Shown here one piece after another: positions 572 through 60,728 of a stretch of 64,000 bases of DNA. The position numbers were made by a program, and so were the translations under genes. The notes under the pieces are model-generated. The model ran no database searches. It saw only the letters and a list, made by a program, of their open reading frames with translations, and was not told the DNA's origin. How positions within the stretch are numbered: position 1 is the first letter of the stretch; each line of letters opens with the position of its first letter. Origin of the DNA: Larkinella soli (GTDB lineage Bacteria > Bacteroidota > Bacteroidia > Cytophagales > Spirosomataceae); contig NZ_QTJY01000005.1 of the NCBI RefSeq assembly GCF_003703975.1, positions 62,001 through 126,000 on the forward strand. The letters run 5' to 3'.

Positions 572-1396
572 TTAGCGGGTATTGGCAGGTACGCCGGATT
601 CGGCGGCCTCACTGACGTACGATGGAAAACCGACCTGGGCGTACAGCTTCGCGATCCGGTGGGCGTGTTCGTCGTAGGCGGCCTCGAACAGCTCGACGGC
701 CCGCTCCGAGCCGACCACGGCCGCGCTGCTCAGCACCTTCGGCGGCCGCCCGGCTTCGGTCAGCAGACGCGCCACCTCGGCTTTGAGGCAGTTGATGATC
801 AGCGCCCCGCCGACGGTGCTTCCCGGCGAAACCGGCGTATCCAGCCCCGGCACGCTCACCATGGCATCCCCCGCCGGAGCGCCGGTGTCCAGCACCAGAT
901 CGGCGAAATCGCCCAGCTTGAGGCCGTCGGCGCGTTTGCTGGTGCTTTGTTCCGAGTGTTCCTTCGTAATCAGCGCCACCACCCGGATCCCCCGCCGGCG
1001 GAAGCCTTCGGCCATCTCGACGGGCACGACATTACAGCCGCTCGACGAAATGACGAGGGCCGTATCCTGCCCGGACAGATCATAATTTCGCAGGATACGC
1101 TCGGCCAGGCCCGACACGTTCTCCAGAAACATGGCCTGCCGCTGCCCGTTGGCTCCGACCACCAGATTATGGAACGTCAGCGAAAGCTCGACGATGGGGT
1201 TGAAGCCGGGAAACGAACCGTAGCGCGGCCACATCTCCTCGACCATGATCCGGCTGTGTCCCGAGCCGAAGACGTGTACCATGCGGCCCGCCAGAATCGT
1301 ATCGGCAAACCACCGGGCCGCCTGCCGAAGCGGCTCCTCCTGCCGCTCCACGGCGTCGATGATCGCCCGGCTTTTTTTGAGATATTCCTGTATCAT
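572..1396 (-). CDS. SIS-domain sugar isomerase-like protein (UPF0309-like)
   Basis: A 274-aa cytoplasmic protein with one SIS (sugar isomerase) domain. The phosphosugar-binding strand is visible as HVFGSGHSR near residue 42, a second serine cluster as LVISSSGCN near residue 115, and a C-terminal stretch STVGGALIINCLKAEVA typical of the UPF0309/SIS group. Such proteins bind phosphorylated (amino) sugars and may isomerise them or split an ether side chain. It sits 25 nt downstream of the ROK kinase and 24 nt upstream of the TIM-barrel gene, so it probably acts on the kinase product. Family is clear; the exact reaction is not determinable here. Confidence 0.82.
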   Translation of the reverse strand: MIQEYLKKSRAIIDAVERQEEPLRQAARWFADTILAGRMVHVFGSGHSRIMVEEMWPRYGSFPGFNPIVELSLTFHNLVVGANGQRQAMFLENVSGLAERILRNYDLSGQDTALVISSSGCNVVPVEMAEGFRRRGIRVVALITKEHSEQSTSKRADGLKLGDFADLVLDTGAPAGDAMVSVPGLDTPVSPGSTVGGALIINCLKAEVARLLTEAGRPPKVLSSAAVVGSERAVELFEAAYDEHAHRIAKLYAQVGFPSYVSEAAESGVPANTR

Positions 1397-1421
1397 CCTG
1401 TTGGTTGTTATTTTTTGTTTT

Positions 1422-2306
1422 TCAACCCTCCCCCCCCACGGCCCCGGCGGCCCCGATCGCTCCGGCCCAGTCCTCGAAATGGGCCTTGCGGAGGGTGGTG
1501 AATTTACCGGCCGGACGCCACTCGAAAACGTCCAGAAACGCCTTCAGCGGCCCGAACAGGGCGTCGTCGGCCTGTACGATGCCGCCCCCCAGCACCACCA
1601 CCTCCGGCGAAAAGGCGTTCGCCAGACCGGCAATCGTGACGGCCAGCCGGCGGATCGAGGTCAGCCAGACCAGCGTCGCCAGCGGTTCGTTCTGCCGGTA
1701 GGCGTCCACCAGTTCGTGGGTGGTTTTGTAGCGGTCGTAGGAGCGCCGGGCCACCGTCGAGTTACCGATGGCATCTTCGATATTTCCCGGCATATTACTG
1801 ATTCCCAGATAGTCGCTGTCGGCATCGGTAGTAATGTGGCCCAGGTGGCCGGCCATCTGGAAATAGCCCTGATACAGTTGCCCGTTGACGAGCAGCCCCC
1901 CGCCCACCCCGGTTCCGAGCGTCAGCATGAGGGCGTTCCGGATGTCGCGGGCGGCTCCGTAGCGGGCTTCGGCCATGAGGGCTGCGTGCGCATCGTTCAG
2001 CACCCTGACCGGCGCACCGAAGTAGTCCGCCCAGACGAAGTGTTCCAGCCCCGGCAGGCGGCCGGGCATACAGAGAATGGCGTCGTTGGCGGGGTTCGGG
2101 ATGCCCGGCGCGGAAAGACCCACCCCGGTTACCGGCCCGCCGGCAGCGGCTTTCAATTGCCGGAACGTATCCAGTACGGCCGATTTCCACCGGCCGTCTT
2201 CGCTGTCGTTGGTCGGACAGACGACGCGGTGCAGAACGTTGCCGGTCGCTGCGTCGATGAGCACGCCCTTGATGCGGGTGCCGCCGATGTCGATGCCTAT
2301 CGTCAT
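1422..2306 (-). CDS. ROK-family sugar kinase lacking the usual zinc motif
   Basis: A 294-aa ROK-family protein. The N-terminal phosphate loop is DIGGTRIKGVL (from residue 5). The catalytic aspartate lies in VLNDAHAALMAEARYG, and a second ATP-binding segment is TLGTGVGGGLL. ROK kinases normally carry CxCGxxGCxE after GHxxh; here GHLGHITTD is followed by a segment without any cysteine (SNMPGNIEDAIGN), so the structural zinc site is absent. The start overlaps the SDR stop by 4 nt (ATGA), indicating translational coupling. Probably phosphorylates the sugar handled by the neighbouring SIS protein; glucose, N-acetylmannosamine or a rarer sugar cannot be told apart. Confidence 0.85.
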   Translation of the reverse strand: MTIGIDIGGTRIKGVLIDAATGNVLHRVVCPTNDSEDGRWKSAVLDTFRQLKAAAGGPVTGVGLSAPGIPNPANDAILCMPGRLPGLEHFVWADYFGAPVRVLNDAHAALMAEARYGAARDIRNALMLTLGTGVGGGLLVNGQLYQGYFQMAGHLGHITTDADSDYLGISNMPGNIEDAIGNSTVARRSYDRYKTTHELVDAYRQNEPLATLVWLTSIRRLAVTIAGLANAFSPEVVVLGGGIVQADDALFGPLKAFLDVFEWRPAGKFTTLRKAHFEDWAGAIGAAGAVGGEG

Positions 2307-3103
2307 GGTTGTCCGAATTGTCCTTCGCTGACTTCCCAGCCGCCGTCGACGGCCAGCACCTGCCCGGTGGTGTACCGCGAGAGGTCCGACATGAAGTAGA
2401 CGGCGGCCCCGTCGAGGTCGGCCGGCCGGCCGATGCGGCCGCCGTCCAGGGGCTGTTTGGTTTTGATGAAATCAAGAATGGCGGCATCATTGGCGGCCCG
2501 CTGCGCCATGGGCGTTTCCACGAGGGCGGGCGCCAGCACGTTCACCCGGATGTCGCTGGCCGCGTAATAGGCCGCAATCGATTTGGTGAATCCGATGATG
2601 GCGGCTTTGGTGGCGCCATAGGCATGGGTGGCGAAATACCGGGGCGAGGGCGAAAAGCCCAGCACCGACCCCATGTTCAGAATGGTGCCGCCGGTATTCT
2701 GCTCCAGAAATGCCCGGACGGCCGCCTGATTCGACAGCATAAGCGAGGTCAGGTTCAGTTCGAAGGTACGGTTCCAGCCGTCGAGGCTCAGCTCATGCAG
2801 CGGCCCGTCGCCGAAACGCCGACCGCTCCCGCCGGCCACATGATACAGCCCGTCGAAACGACCGAATTCACCCCGGCAGAGCGTGATGGCGGAGACCGCC
2901 GTGGCGGGGTCGGTCGCATCGCCGTTCAGGGCCCGTCCGTAACCGGCGAGCAGGGCTTCGGCGGCCTTACAACTCTCTTCATTCCGGCCGACGACCACCA
3001 CCCGGGCGCCCTGTTCGATGAAGGCCTGAGCGGCAGACAGCCCCAGACCGGTGGTTCCACCGACCACGACGATTGCCTTTCCGCCTAACCATTGCTGTTC
3101 CAT
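2303..3103 (-). CDS. SDR-family NAD(P)-dependent oxidoreductase
   Basis: A 266-aa classical short-chain dehydrogenase. The Rossmann glycine motif GGTTGLGLSAA lies near residues 14-25, the catalytic Tyr-x-x-x-Lys is in YGATKAA with serine upstream (NMGSVLGFSPS), and the C-terminal end DGGWEVSEGQ is typical. It is the first gene of the sugar operon and faces the GntR repressor gene across 131 bp. It probably oxidises or reduces a sugar or sugar acid as the first step of the pathway. The substrate is unknown. Confidence 0.87.
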   Translation of the reverse strand: MEQQWLGGKAIVVVGGTTGLGLSAAQAFIEQGARVVVVGRNEESCKAAEALLAGYGRALNGDATDPATAVSAITLCRGEFGRFDGLYHVAGGSGRRFGDGPLHELSLDGWNRTFELNLTSLMLSNQAAVRAFLEQNTGGTILNMGSVLGFSPSPRYFATHAYGATKAAIIGFTKSIAAYYAASDIRVNVLAPALVETPMAQRAANDAAILDFIKTKQPLDGGRIGRPADLDGAAVYFMSDLSRYTTGQVLAVDGGWEVSEGQFGQP

Positions 3104-3169
3104 ACGCGATAAAAACGACTGCTGAATTCCGGGTAACGAAGGTAGAAAGCGACATTCATAAATCCTACT

Positions 3170-42653: not shown

Positions 42654-42761
42654 GGACCACCCCCCAGCCCCCTCCTTGGTAAGGAGGGGGAGTGCTCCGC
42701 CATGTTCAGCAATCTGCGAAGCCACCCCCTCCTTTCCAAGGAGGGGGCCGGGGGGTGGTCC
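42654..42761. repeat. Composite palindromic repeat R2 (108 bp)
   Basis: Outer arms GGACCACCCCCCAG (42654-42667) and CCGGGGGGTGGTCC (42748-42761) are inverted. Hairpin 1 is CCCCCTCCTT-ggt-AAGGAGGGGG (42668-42690), hairpin 2 CCCCCTCCTT-tcc-AAGGAGGGGG (42725-42747). The 34-bp core between them (42691-42724) shares AGTGCTCCGCCA and CTGCGAAGCCA with R3, which carries it in the opposite orientation. It lies between tandem minus-strand genes, 16 bp upstream of the S41 start. Confidence 0.85.
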
Positions 42762-45104: not shown

Positions 45105-46007
45105 TCAGAATTTAACGCCCAGCTTTTTGGCGATATCGGCGAACATTTCGGGGTCGATTTCGTCGGCACCCGGTGCATTGAGCTGCGGCTCCTCGTCGAG
45201 GTCCGGCGCCGGGAAGCCTTCAGGGCTGCCCTGAATAAACTCCAGCGGCTGGCCGTCTTCGGGGTGTGTGCCGGTCCAGATCAGTCCGGCCTGCTTGTAA
45301 TCCTCCTGACTGAACGTATAGAGTTTCAGGTGTACTTTGTTCTGCATGTGCTTCTTCGCTTCCGGGAACGCGTCGTTGCTCAGGTCCGGAATCGGCAGCA
45401 GTTTGGTCACGTCGACACCCGTCAGTTTTTCAAGCGCTTTGGCATACGCCACGATGTGAATACCGCCCCGAACGAGCAGGTAGCCCACCATTTCGCGGGC
45501 GGTGCGGTCTTCCACCATCTCATAGACCCGCATTTTGTTGCCGCGGGCACCACACTCCAGGAAGAAGTTGTGGAGCAGGTCCAGCTTCAGGTTGCCGCTG
45601 CTGAACACGTTGCCGCCCGTCCAGAAATCTCCTTGTGAGTCCATTGGCAGGGCGGTTTGTCCGCTCGCGATGAAGTGCCGCGTGTTGCGGGCGTCGGTTC
45701 CATTGGCGAGGGGCGTCACGGTCGGGTCGATGCCGCGTTTGGTCACGCCCGAAAGCAGCAGGTTGATCGTGTAGGAAACCACCTCGATGTGGCCGTACTC
45801 CTCCCCGGCGATGCTGCAGATCAGGTCGTAGAACGGCCGCAGTTTCTTGCGTCCGCGGAAGTTGAACGACTGATAGGTGTAGTTCATCAGCGTCGACATC
45901 TCCCCGAACTTGCCGCCGAGAAGTTCCTGAACGGCAGCCGCACTGTTGGGCGAGGGGTTTTTGGGTGTGGGCAGCTCAATCGGCAGCCGGTCCATCTTCA
46001 AAATCAT
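45105..46007 (-). CDS. Manganese catalase
   Basis: A 300-aa non-haem, dimanganese catalase. Ligand segments are GKFGEMSTLMNYTYQSFNFRGRKK (first Glu) and IAGEEYGHIEVVSY (Glu and His), then GARGNKMRVYEMVEDRTAREMVGYLLVRGGIHIVAYAKAL (Glu and His in the second helix pair). The C-terminal tail (PDLDEEPQLNAPGADEIDP) is acidic. It disproportionates H2O2 in the cytoplasm. A candidate promoter lies about 150 bp upstream. Confidence 0.92.
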   Translation of the reverse strand: MILKMDRLPIELPTPKNPSPNSAAAVQELLGGKFGEMSTLMNYTYQSFNFRGRKKLRPFYDLICSIAGEEYGHIEVVSYTINLLLSGVTKRGIDPTVTPLANGTDARNTRHFIASGQTALPMDSQGDFWTGGNVFSSGNLKLDLLHNFFLECGARGNKMRVYEMVEDRTAREMVGYLLVRGGIHIVAYAKALEKLTGVDVTKLLPIPDLSNDAFPEAKKHMQNKVHLKLYTFSQEDYKQAGLIWTGTHPEDGQPLEFIQGSPEGFPAPDLDEEPQLNAPGADEIDPEMFADIAKKLGVKF

Positions 46008-46155
46008 AATCTGAGCTGGTTAAAGATGAAAAGATGAGTAAGAGGGACCGGCTGTCTTCGGCCGGAATCTCAAAAAATGAACCCTCCCCTATATAGGTTG
46101 TTTCCGTTTTCCTATCCTGAGTTCATTGATTCTCTCGATACCTGATCGATATTTT

Positions 46156-46183
46156 CAATATAAGAACTGTATCCTGCTATCAA
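46156..46183 (-). promoter_or_regulatory. Candidate Mn-catalase promoter
   Basis: On the minus strand TTG (46183-46181) and TATATTG (46162-46156) are 18 nt apart, close to the Bacteroidota -33/-7 pattern. It would give a leader of about 140 nt before the start at 46007. Confidence 0.35.
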
Positions 46184-46283
46184 TCAACCACTTGTACTTT
46201 TTCCAAATGACTTATTAATTTTCCTTTACCAACTTGAGTGTGCGGTATTTTTTGCAATCATTTTTATTTTGTGCACAAGCAAT

Positions 46284-46291
46284 TATATTTG
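46284..46291 (+). promoter_or_regulatory. Perfect -7 element TATATTTG before the structured leader
   Basis: TATATTTG matches the Bacteroidota -7 consensus TAnnTTTG exactly; TTTT at 46261-46264, 19 nt upstream, is a weak -33. Transcription would start near 46297, at the first bases of the closing helix of the leader RNA. Confidence 0.6.
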
Positions 46292-46295
46292 CAGC

Positions 46296-46456
46296 GGCTA
46301 ACTATCTAATACTTGTACCAAGTAAACTCTTAAGGCGGGCCTGCTTTATGGAGAAGGAAAAGCCTTGGCCGGCAAAAGGGTGAAAGTCCCCCTCTCCATT
46401 TAGCAGGCACTTTAGAGTGGTGTTATATAGTTAGCCAGTGACCGGCCTCTTTTTTG
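46296..46456 (+). ncRNA. Structured leader RNA with riboswitch-like alternative pairing
   Basis: A perfect 10-bp closing helix pairs GGCTAACTAT (46296-46305) with ATAGTTAGCC (46427-46436). Inside it are hairpin ACTTG-tac-CAAGT (46311-46323) and helix ACTCT/AGAGT (46326-46330 with 46414-46418). A long arm follows, GCCTGCT/AGCAGGC (46339-46345 with 46402-46408), then ATGGAGA/TCTCCAT (46348-46354 with 46393-46399), topped by two small hairpins. The loop GGCCGG (46367-46372) can pair with CCGGCC (46442-46447), just before a T6 run. GTTAGCC (46430-46436) can alternatively pair with GGCTAAC (46467-46473), covering the start of the next gene. I recognise no family. Confidence 0.6.
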
Positions 46457-46464
46457 CTTTTCCA

Positions 46465-46833
46465 ATGGCTAACCAGAACAACCCCCTGCGGCATCTGCCT
46501 ACCTCGCAGCGCCCGCTGACCAACCATCAGGTTGCGCACGCCCGCTGTTTCCGACTCCCCGACTTCGACATGACGCCTTTGCTGCCCCGGGGGGCCATCG
46601 TCGTCGGCTTTCCCATCGACCTCGCCGACCGTGAAATGGCCTCCGGCCTGCTCCTGATCGAAACCACCGACGGCCGCATCGTCTGCGGCCGCACCATCTG
46701 CGTGACGCCCTTCGCCGTCGTCCTGCGCTTCGACCGCCCCAACTGCCCCTCCAGATCCTTTCTGCACCGGGAGATTCACCAGTTGTACCAGGCCTTCCCC
46801 ATCGACGGGCAGGGCATCCCGCCGTATTTCTGA
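46465..46833 (+). CDS. Degenerate S24/LexA-peptidase-like domain protein
   Basis: A 122-aa cytoplasmic protein, starting at 46465 (MANQNNPLRHLPTS). FRLPDFDMTPLLPRGAIVVGFPID resembles the start of S24 peptidase domains (GDSMxPxxxxGxxV), but the serine is replaced by Asp. In the later GLLLIETTDGRIVCGRTICV the general-base Lys is not present. It has no helix-turn-helix. So it is probably a non-catalytic relative of phage-repressor C-terminal domains, or a different beta fold. Its start codon is the alternative partner of the leader RNA. Repeat R3 begins 1 nt after the stop. Confidence 0.65.
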   Translation: MANQNNPLRHLPTSQRPLTNHQVAHARCFRLPDFDMTPLLPRGAIVVGFPIDLADREMASGLLLIETTDGRIVCGRTICVTPFAVVLRFDRPNCPSRSFLHREIHQLYQAFPIDGQGIPPYF

Positions 46834-46834
46834 G

Positions 46835-46956
46835 GGACCACCCCCCAGCCCCCTCCTTGCTAAGGAGGGGGTGGCTTCGCAGAGCGTTGAAAGTGGCGGA
46901 GCACTCCCCCTCCTTGGTAAGGAGGGGGCTGGGGGGTGGTCCGGCTGGGGGTGGTC
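46835..46956. repeat. Composite palindromic repeat R3 (108 bp plus an extra arm)
   Basis: GGACCACCCCCCAG begins at 46835 and GGGGGGTGGTCC ends at 46942. The two hairpins are CCCCCTCCTT-gct-AAGGAGGGGG and CCCCCTCCTT-ggt-AAGGAGGGGG. The core, read on the minus strand, matches that of R2, so the two copies are inverted relative to each other. A further arm GGCTGGGGGTGGTC follows (46943-46956). The rest of the convergent gap to 47066 shows nothing else. Confidence 0.85.
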
Positions 46957-58533: not shown

Positions 58534-58577
58534 ACCACCCCCCAACCCCCTCCTTACCAAGGAGGGGGTGGTTTCAC
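58530..58577. repeat. Palindromic repeat R4 (single-hairpin form)
   Basis: GTGAACCACCCCCC and GGGGGTGGTTTCAC bracket CCCCCTCCTT-acc-AAGGAGGGGG, giving one long inverted repeat. It includes the DUF3999 stop codon (58531-58533) and ends 1 nt before the stop codon of the convergent gene (58579), filling the gap. Confidence 0.8.
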
Positions 58578-60562: not shown

Positions 60563-60728
60563 TCCGGCGGAGCTAAGCTCCCCCTTTAGAGGTTGTTTGG
60601 GGAAGCGGTTTGTCATCCCGCCGACCCCCTCCGGCCCCCTCCTAAAACAGGAGGGGGAGAGGGCGCTGCCCTTTTTCAGTCCTGCAGAGCCACCCCCTCC
60701 TGTTTTAGGAGGGGGCCGGGGGGTGGTC
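60530..60728. repeat. Composite palindromic repeat R5 (two units)
   Basis: A first unit (60533-60600) contains GCCCCCTAAAGGGGGAG and CTCCCCCTTTAG as inverted copies. A second (60622-60728) has hairpins CCCCCTCCT-aaaac-AGGAGGGGG (60635-60657) and CCCCCTCCT-gtttt-AGGAGGGGG (60693-60715), which are exact reverse complements of each other. The core between them matches the R2 layout, and the unit ends CCGGGGGGTGGTC. TTTGTCATCCCG at 60609-60620 is shared with R1. Confidence 0.85.

Follow-up and report, generated by a model that had tools for sequence, protein, structure and literature searches.

A multi-copy, phage-associated leader RNA of Larkinella soli with an antisense segment complementary to the downstream start codon

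Described antisense leaders and the Larkinella soli locus

Phages of the P1/P7 type are known to carry an RNA layer of control, and their C4 RNA (RF01695, with RF03163 c4-a1b1 in clan CL00128) has the same order of parts as the RNA reported here. In the P1 record AF234172 these parts are annotated in the order a1, b1, C4, a2, b2 and icd. PMC5320573 describes C4 as being cut by RNase P and repressing via short a' and b' pairings, presents a' and b' as loops, and reports multi-copy chromosomal C4 relatives in Acinetobacter, and a table in PMC2864571 lists RF01695 for Proteobacteria and phages. A second precedent is IsrK of the Salmonella prophage Gifsy-1 (RF01394), which PMC4825925 describes as a read-through mRNA that is silent in cis and that its short form activates in trans.

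The window, by which we mean the whole analysed stretch of 64,000 nucleotides from Larkinella soli, contains a leader that an initial annotation had described as riboswitch-like, with a closing helix competing with the start codon of the next gene. All elements named there were found where they had been placed, and their pattern is not due to chance. The parts of the leader are as follows.

46284..46291 (+): TATATTTG, judged from sequence to be the putative −7 box (Bacteroidota type) of the promoter for the leader; most other copies have such a box as well
46296..46305 (+): strand 1, GGCTAACTAT, which repeats the target letters at the transcript's putative 5' end and pairs with strand 2
46306..46365 (+): 5' side of the long hairpin, with the inner stems, from arm-swap energies
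46367..46374 (+): 5' strand of the closing stem, GGCCGG plus CA, covarying in the alignments A5 and A8
46378..46390 (+): T-loop hairpin GGG[TGAAAGT]CCC with covarying stem and the loop consensus UGNRAGU
46427..46436 (+): strand 2, the antisense segment ATAGTTAGCC, complementary to strand 1 (10 bp) and strand 3 (8 bp)
46437..46441 (+): conserved AGTGA; T46439 and G46440 lengthen the closing stem and A46441 is its bulge
46442..46447 (+): 3' strand of the closing stem, CCGGCC, covarying
46448..46455 (+): T-rich run TCTTTTTT behind the closing stem, at which a short RNA may have a terminator-like 3' end
46465..46833 (+): downstream ORF of 122 aa, with a near paralogue behind another copy of the RNA
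46466..46473 (+): strand 3, TGGCTAAC, which begins at the T of the ATG, reaches into codons 2–3 and pairs with strand 2

The heptamer GGCTAAC (46467–46473) begins on the G of the ATG (46465–46467), and A46437 gives strand 2 one extra pair to strand 3. Folding of 46296–46500 yielded −68.5 kcal/mol with z = −2.33, and as 5 of 200 shuffles folded equally well, this signal is modest when taken alone. The L. soli genome contains nine copies of a structured RNA, the window leader among them, and it is the comparison across copies, going beyond folding energy, that confirms the leader as real.

As in C4, an upstream copy of the target is followed by a compact hairpin RNA with an antisense stretch and by the target at the start of the next ORF, so that strand 1 is the positional counterpart of a1/b1 of phage P1. 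In both RNAs a closing stem joins the ends, a hairpin lies directly behind its 5' strand and the antisense stretch precedes its 3' strand; the body comprises 65–85 nt here and 77 nt in the annotation of C4. Occurrence in several chromosomal copies is a further trait common to our RNA and the Acinetobacter relatives. Where P1 C4 has its UUCG hairpin, however, the RNA described here has a T-loop; strand 2, unlike the looped a' and b' of C4, pairs with strand 1 in the long hairpin of the uncut transcript, and the target overlaps the ATG itself, 29–46 nt behind strand 2. The genomes concerned are of the Bacteroidota type, unlike those listed for RF01695. The RF01695 model, with which P1 itself scores 68.8 bits, found no match in 46100–46900 at E values up to 10 or in six other loci at E values up to 1, and in the reverse direction our covariance model R2 reached at best 4.2 bits on the C4 of P1, which is no match. 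We have filed the RNA as one that works like C4 without being a member of RF01695. It also resembles IsrK in being a putative prophage leader that may serve both as small RNA and as mRNA, with alternative structures at the start site; it differs in the direction of control, which in IsrK is activation by the short form, and none of the RNA copies tested had an Rfam match.

Copies, distribution and the covarying body

The nine copies in the L. soli genome were found with a sequence pattern, a looser version of it and a paralogue of the downstream ORF, and model R2 returns all nine at 53 bits or more along with a single match of 14.9 bits that we take as chance. They have in common the −7 box, the first letters, a conserved core, the reverse complement of the first letters, GTGACCGGCC with a T-run, and finally an ATG at which the first letters are repeated. 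T-rich stretches of varying length stand behind the closing stem in many copies. When 59 genomes including that of L. soli were searched with the DNA, convincing matches were confined to the latter (best elsewhere E = 0.02). The strict pattern was absent from the eight other Larkinella species searched (0/8), and model R1 gave only one match in these congeners, which at 15.9 bits and E = 0.87 was again taken as chance. Convincing relatives sit in other genera instead; homologous leaders, which the initial annotation had proposed to collect from related genomes, thus exist in other genera and were not convincingly found in the eight Larkinella species searched.

Model R1 was run over 222 genomes of the family and model R2 over 390 genomes of the order, where 42 genomes matched at E ≤ 0.01, 35 of these with at least 34 bits; together the two models extend the RNA over many genera. 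Across the phylum 9 of 395 genomes matched, of which four, L. soli included, were kept after inspection. The filters of these large genome searches are stricter, so that weak copies can be missed. Fibrisoma limi BUZ 3 carries one copy, which is also present in an IMG/VR contig and by eye adjoins phage-like genes; it was the only real one among pattern matches in 13 genome stretches, the other 12 lying, by eye, in unrelated sequence. A homing-endonuclease-like ORF (L077, 244–1272, − strand) adjoins the F. limi copy beside the phage-like genes (by eye). In total the RNA is found in at least four IMG/VR contigs, as model R2, applied to 86 of 126 pattern-matched viral stretches, revealed at least three copies among the matches listed (L188, L189 and L190), all of which show new letters in all three strands. 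BLAST searches of phages and plasmids with three RNA stretches gave no matches or short and weak ones.

Rfam 15 at its gathering threshold had no match in the whole 64 kb window, group II introns and known riboswitches included. Around the leader (46100–46900) only weak, off-family matches appeared at E values up to 10, and at six other loci nothing was found at the RNA at E values up to 1. This agrees with the initial proposal of an unclassified cis-regulatory RNA. A group II intron fragment and an HDV-like ribozyme were considered and dropped. Among the openly licensed papers listed in literature searches, none describes such an RNA in its title or the opening of its abstract. The present family adds a strongly covarying, phage-associated and putatively regulatory RNA that lacks an Rfam 15 match, from host bacteria in which little work has been done on translation signals or on the regulation of phages.

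For comparison, 92 of the fetched matches were entered in a table, and the removal of three that lack a GYGA motif left 89 copies. Eleven fetched matches had been excluded beforehand as chance by eye (L104–L107, L126, L127, L148–L152), and the doubtful L187 (30.6 bits) was retained. Two elements make up the body of the RNA: the closing stem, which has nine pairs and one bulged A and includes GGCCGG:CCGGCC, and the T-loop hairpin. Both covary heavily. In the 44-sequence alignment A5 the closing stem appears as GGAGAGG:CCTCTCC, GGAAAGG:CCTTTCC, GGCAGG:CCTGCC, ACGACGG:CCGTCGT, CGGTTGG:CCAACCG, CGGTAAG:CTTACCG and others, with a covariation score of 0.521 against 0.159 in shuffled alignments (reached by 0/500) and at most 0.144 in slid versions; further pair types were as numerous in 9 of 500 shuffles. 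A8, an alignment of 68 bodies of 65–85 nt, behaves in the same way: 97.7 % of cells in the closing stem and small hairpin are paired, and the score is 0.524 against 0.166 (0/500 shuffles; slid versions at most 0.143). On the weaker measures, 23 of 500 shuffles of A8 reached the observed changes on both sides and 7 of 500 the further pair types. RNAalifold applied to A8 itself yields the closing stem, the T-loop hairpin and a weak two-pair stem, with double changes in 12 of 15 predicted pairs.

In A8 the closing stem continues beyond a single bulged A with two further pairs, in which C and R face the YG of GYGA; of the 68 sequences, 59 have AU and 9 have GC at the R–Y pair of columns 9 and 78, which is never broken. 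The hairpin loop follows the consensus UGNRAGU, which we take to fit the T-loop motif of tRNA, and most of its positions are invariant, L121 lacking the first U. The long-range pair GGCCGG:CCGGCC singled out by the initial annotation is thus real and lies inside the most strongly covarying stem, whose covariation is present in both A5 and A8.

Complementarity of strand 2 to the start codon and to strand 1

In 66 of the 89 copies strand 2 forms at least seven consecutive Watson–Crick pairs with mRNA 25–60 nt downstream, and 58 of these matches, that of the window among them, lie at an ATG. When strand 2 was swapped in from dissimilar copies, such a match arose in 96 of 4,612 cases (2.1 %). The 66 copies contain 23 distinct strand-2 9-mers. 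The competition between closing helix and start codon that had been read from the single leader persists in 58 of 89 copies even though the letters differ. Of the ten positions counted from the G of the ATG, nine change jointly with strand 2 in the 58 copies, mismatches occurring from position 6 onwards; since these copies were preselected for a run of at least seven, the swap test serves as the control for the joint changes. The pairing extends into the protein, as a change from ATGCGAAC in some copies to ATGCAAAC in others turns codon 2 from Arg to Gln, giving start codons whose first protein letters obey an RNA pairing code. As the competition is preserved with different letters, the two kinds of evidence to which the initial annotation had tied its proposal, homologous leaders and covariation, are both in place.

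In three copies of the L. soli genome (L033, L034, L063) strand 2 matches strand 3 over 11–12 nt and strand 1 over only 6–7, and strand 3 is for this reason no mere by-product of strand 1. We are highly confident that the first class of copies represents a real structured RNA with a conserved complement between strand 2 and the start codon. Strand 2 also varies within genomes. Among 54 copies of genus g52, 1 of 51 pairs from the same genome agrees in all 10 nt, compared with 12.2 % of pairs between genomes (permutation 0.0074; 0.067 over 8 nt and 0.019 over 12 nt), which is weak evidence as older paralogues compared with orthologues would yield the same pattern.

Of the 85 copies in which strand 1 forms a run of at least five, 68 have the motif TAnnTTTG at a distance of 3–5 nt ahead of strand 1, compared with 11 of 1,700 control windows, and this fixed short distance makes strand 1 probably the 5' end of the transcript. 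Strands 1 and 2 match over a run of at least six in 80 of 89 copies. The long arms that include them were analysed by swapping arms in 84 of the 89 copies, five having failed the length filters. They fold with a mean of −31.7 kcal/mol compared with −14.2 kcal/mol for swapped arms, and own arms beat 95 % of the swaps in 82 of 84 copies, or in 57 of 84 when strands 1 and 2 are removed. In the window copy the arms reach −51.3 kcal/mol, whereas swapped ones average −16.7 kcal/mol; for the inner part the values are −34.4 and −12.6 kcal/mol. Closing stem and long arms are both kept, and jointly they would form a pseudoknot.

The 23 copies without the downstream match comprise seventeen of a second class, the doubtful L187 and five degenerate or changed ones (L060, L083, L084, L092, L121). 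The second class lacks strand 3 and numbers at least 17 copies from the genera g2, g3, g9 or g5, g12, g22, g26, g40 and g55. L141 and L142 also belong to it, the former with an 8-nt match inside its ORF, the latter dropped for lack of GYGA. In seven second-class copies (L140–L145 and L147) the next ATG follows about 8–22 nt behind the closing stem. By eye, seven of nine second-class loci inspected have neighbours in common, and two second-class clusters (19.5 kb) contain capsid-like genes, one of them with a head maturation protease (phrog_53). In the phage-like cluster of G019, UmuD/UmuC-like ORFs (L162, 141–1867, reverse orientation) lie upstream of capsid-like genes (by eye). About a dozen first-class copies have, by eye, kept the RNA next to an ORF that is short, absent or without ATG.

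Downstream genes and candidate mechanisms

The ORF behind the window leader belongs to no Pfam and no PHROG family, and no sequence relatives of it were found in the PDB or by a peptide-pattern search of the genome contigs. An 80 % identical paralogue stands behind the RNA copy on contig C4 of the same genome, three distant paralogues (29–31 % identical, one truncated) stand behind other RNA copies, and a further one (25 %) has no RNA and a different gene context. Over 119 codons the window ORF and its near paralogue differ by 25 synonymous and 22 non-synonymous codons, with 15, 13 and 30 differences at the three codon positions, which suggests moderate selection on the protein. AlphaFold predicts a beta-rich core at a mean pLDDT of 70.6 (two of five models confident). 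Foldseek found nothing at E ≤ 0.001, the best matches being Hfq/Sm-like (E = 0.012) and LexA (E = 0.042), and in view of these ambiguous matches we name no fold; an S24/LexA-like domain is at most a speculative assignment. ORFs behind the RNA in genus g52 measure about 95 aa and are predicted to form three helices after a disordered start. A single scanned downstream ORF has a Pfam family above cut-off, namely the Bro-N (antirepressor-type) ORF behind the phage copy L188 (PF02498, E = 2.1e-25, first 180 of 244 residues), and no other scanned one is a recognised phage regulator. Judged by eye, the downstream genes seem to come from several families that are not related to one another.

We find it reasonably probable that the RNA is a C4-like self-antisense leader of phage origin, in which a freed strand 2 blocks translation; repression of translation in the manner of a C4-like antisense RNA, whether in cis or in trans, appears somewhat probable. 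A transcript starting at strand 1 would fold into a long hairpin, formed by strands 1 and 2 and the inner stems, that surrounds the rigid body of closing stem, bulged A and T-loop hairpin. While strand 1 holds strand 2 the downstream start codon would be free. With strand 2 unheld, either as the 5' arm is cut off or refolded or as a short RNA ending at the T-run supplies it, the freed strand would pair with the ATG and the next codons and thereby block translation. Because strand 1 occupies strand 2 as long as the transcript is uncut, this reading has to assume that the transcript is cut or refolds. From this anatomy we infer repression by ATG pairing, along with release of strand 2 by processing, action in trans and a physiological role. 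If C4-like, the RNA would provide these prophages with an RNA layer of control. More speculatively, it may belong to a phage immunity or compatibility system of Cytophagales-like Bacteroidota, with antisense RNAs of ~75 nt cut or terminated from T-loop leaders, superinfection or co-residence specificity set by a rapidly changing 10-nt segment present three times per unit, first amino acids of the protein that follow the RNA code, and a T-loop recognised by a tRNA-processing enzyme such as RNase P; this wider proposal we regard as tentative.

Computed energies of the two states were compared, disregarding the pseudoknot, in 57 copies, nine of the 66 being dropped as they lack an exact closing-stem partner. 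On average the strand 1/2 and strand 2/3 states differ by 0.95 kcal/mol, and the open state is favoured in 39 of 57 copies. For the window the values are −61.0 kcal/mol (open) and −60.6 kcal/mol, a difference of only 0.4 kcal/mol; a longer 3' end favours the open state by 15 kcal/mol. Because the uniform comparison is near balance, our claim is limited to a competition between the states, and the earlier suggestion that folding decides whether the start codon is free is compatible with these near-balanced model energies. In bodies excised in silico, strand 2 has a mean unpaired probability of 0.43 (57 copies; 0.70 for the window), and this predicted, only partial opening counts against the C4-like reading.

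Such close two-state energies, together with the conserved alternative pairing, would equally suit a conformational switch acting in cis only, riboswitch-like or protein-sensing, in which pseudoknot and T-loop form an aptamer or protein site: binding would steady the strand 1/2 pairing and leave the ATG free, and in the unbound RNA strand 2 would take the ATG. T-loops occur in known riboswitches, and the retention of both closing stem and long arms fits this idea as well. Pseudoknotted riboswitches that control translation likewise combine a core of pseudoknot and T-loop with alternative pairing of the start codon; the RNA described here differs from them in having no ligand, shared pathway or Rfam family. 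The riboswitch-like reading of the initial annotation was not supported in this respect, as the downstream ORFs revealed neither a ligand or pathway nor a common metabolic gene, nor indeed any common function. In other genera, seventeen copies do without strand 3, and the diversity of strand 2 within genomes is not needed for a cis switch, although older paralogy also explains the latter. We consider this alternative rather unlikely.

Activation as in IsrK appears improbable. Here strand 2 would cover the start codon and keep the full transcript silent, until a short isoform with its 3' end at the T-run opened the start in trans by supplying strand 1 or a partner. The T-run behind the closing stem and the 18 of 57 copies in which the silent state is computed as more stable are in line with this, as is the Gifsy-1 precedent of PMC4825925, but in the majority of copies, and by a small difference in the window too, the open state is computed as more stable even without the closing stem being counted. 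Finally, a mobile DNA repeat of inverted and direct repeats without an RNA role would account for the multi-copy, dispersed and sporadic occurrence and for about a dozen copies without intact ORF, yet it is very improbable and refuted as far as the changes in the helices are compensated, given that pairing is kept with different letters in the closing stem, hairpin stem, arms and start-codon complement, that the −7 box keeps a fixed spacing and that most T-loop positions are invariant.

Four neighbouring ORFs scanned around the window leader gave no recognised phage gene. A manganese catalase (PF05067, E = 7e-72) is encoded at 45105–46007 (− strand), divergent from the leader. In the L188 contig, positions 1066–3114 hold a reverse-transcriptase-like ORF and two upstream ORFs with a common RPSGFGFS stretch, by eye an arrangement that looks like a diversity-generating retroelement. 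Behind the copy on contig C7, an Xre/MbcA-like ORF is followed by a RES-like ORF (L033, 3439–4382; by eye), probably a toxin-antitoxin pair. The window further contains seven perfect palindromes CCCCCTCCT...AGGAGGGGG at 42668–42747, 46849–46928, 58546–58568 and 60635–60715, compared with none in 100 shuffles. They are paired three times at a distance of 57–58 nt, two of them lie directly behind the window ORF, and by eye similar palindromes stand upstream of the RNA copies on L031, L033 and L036.
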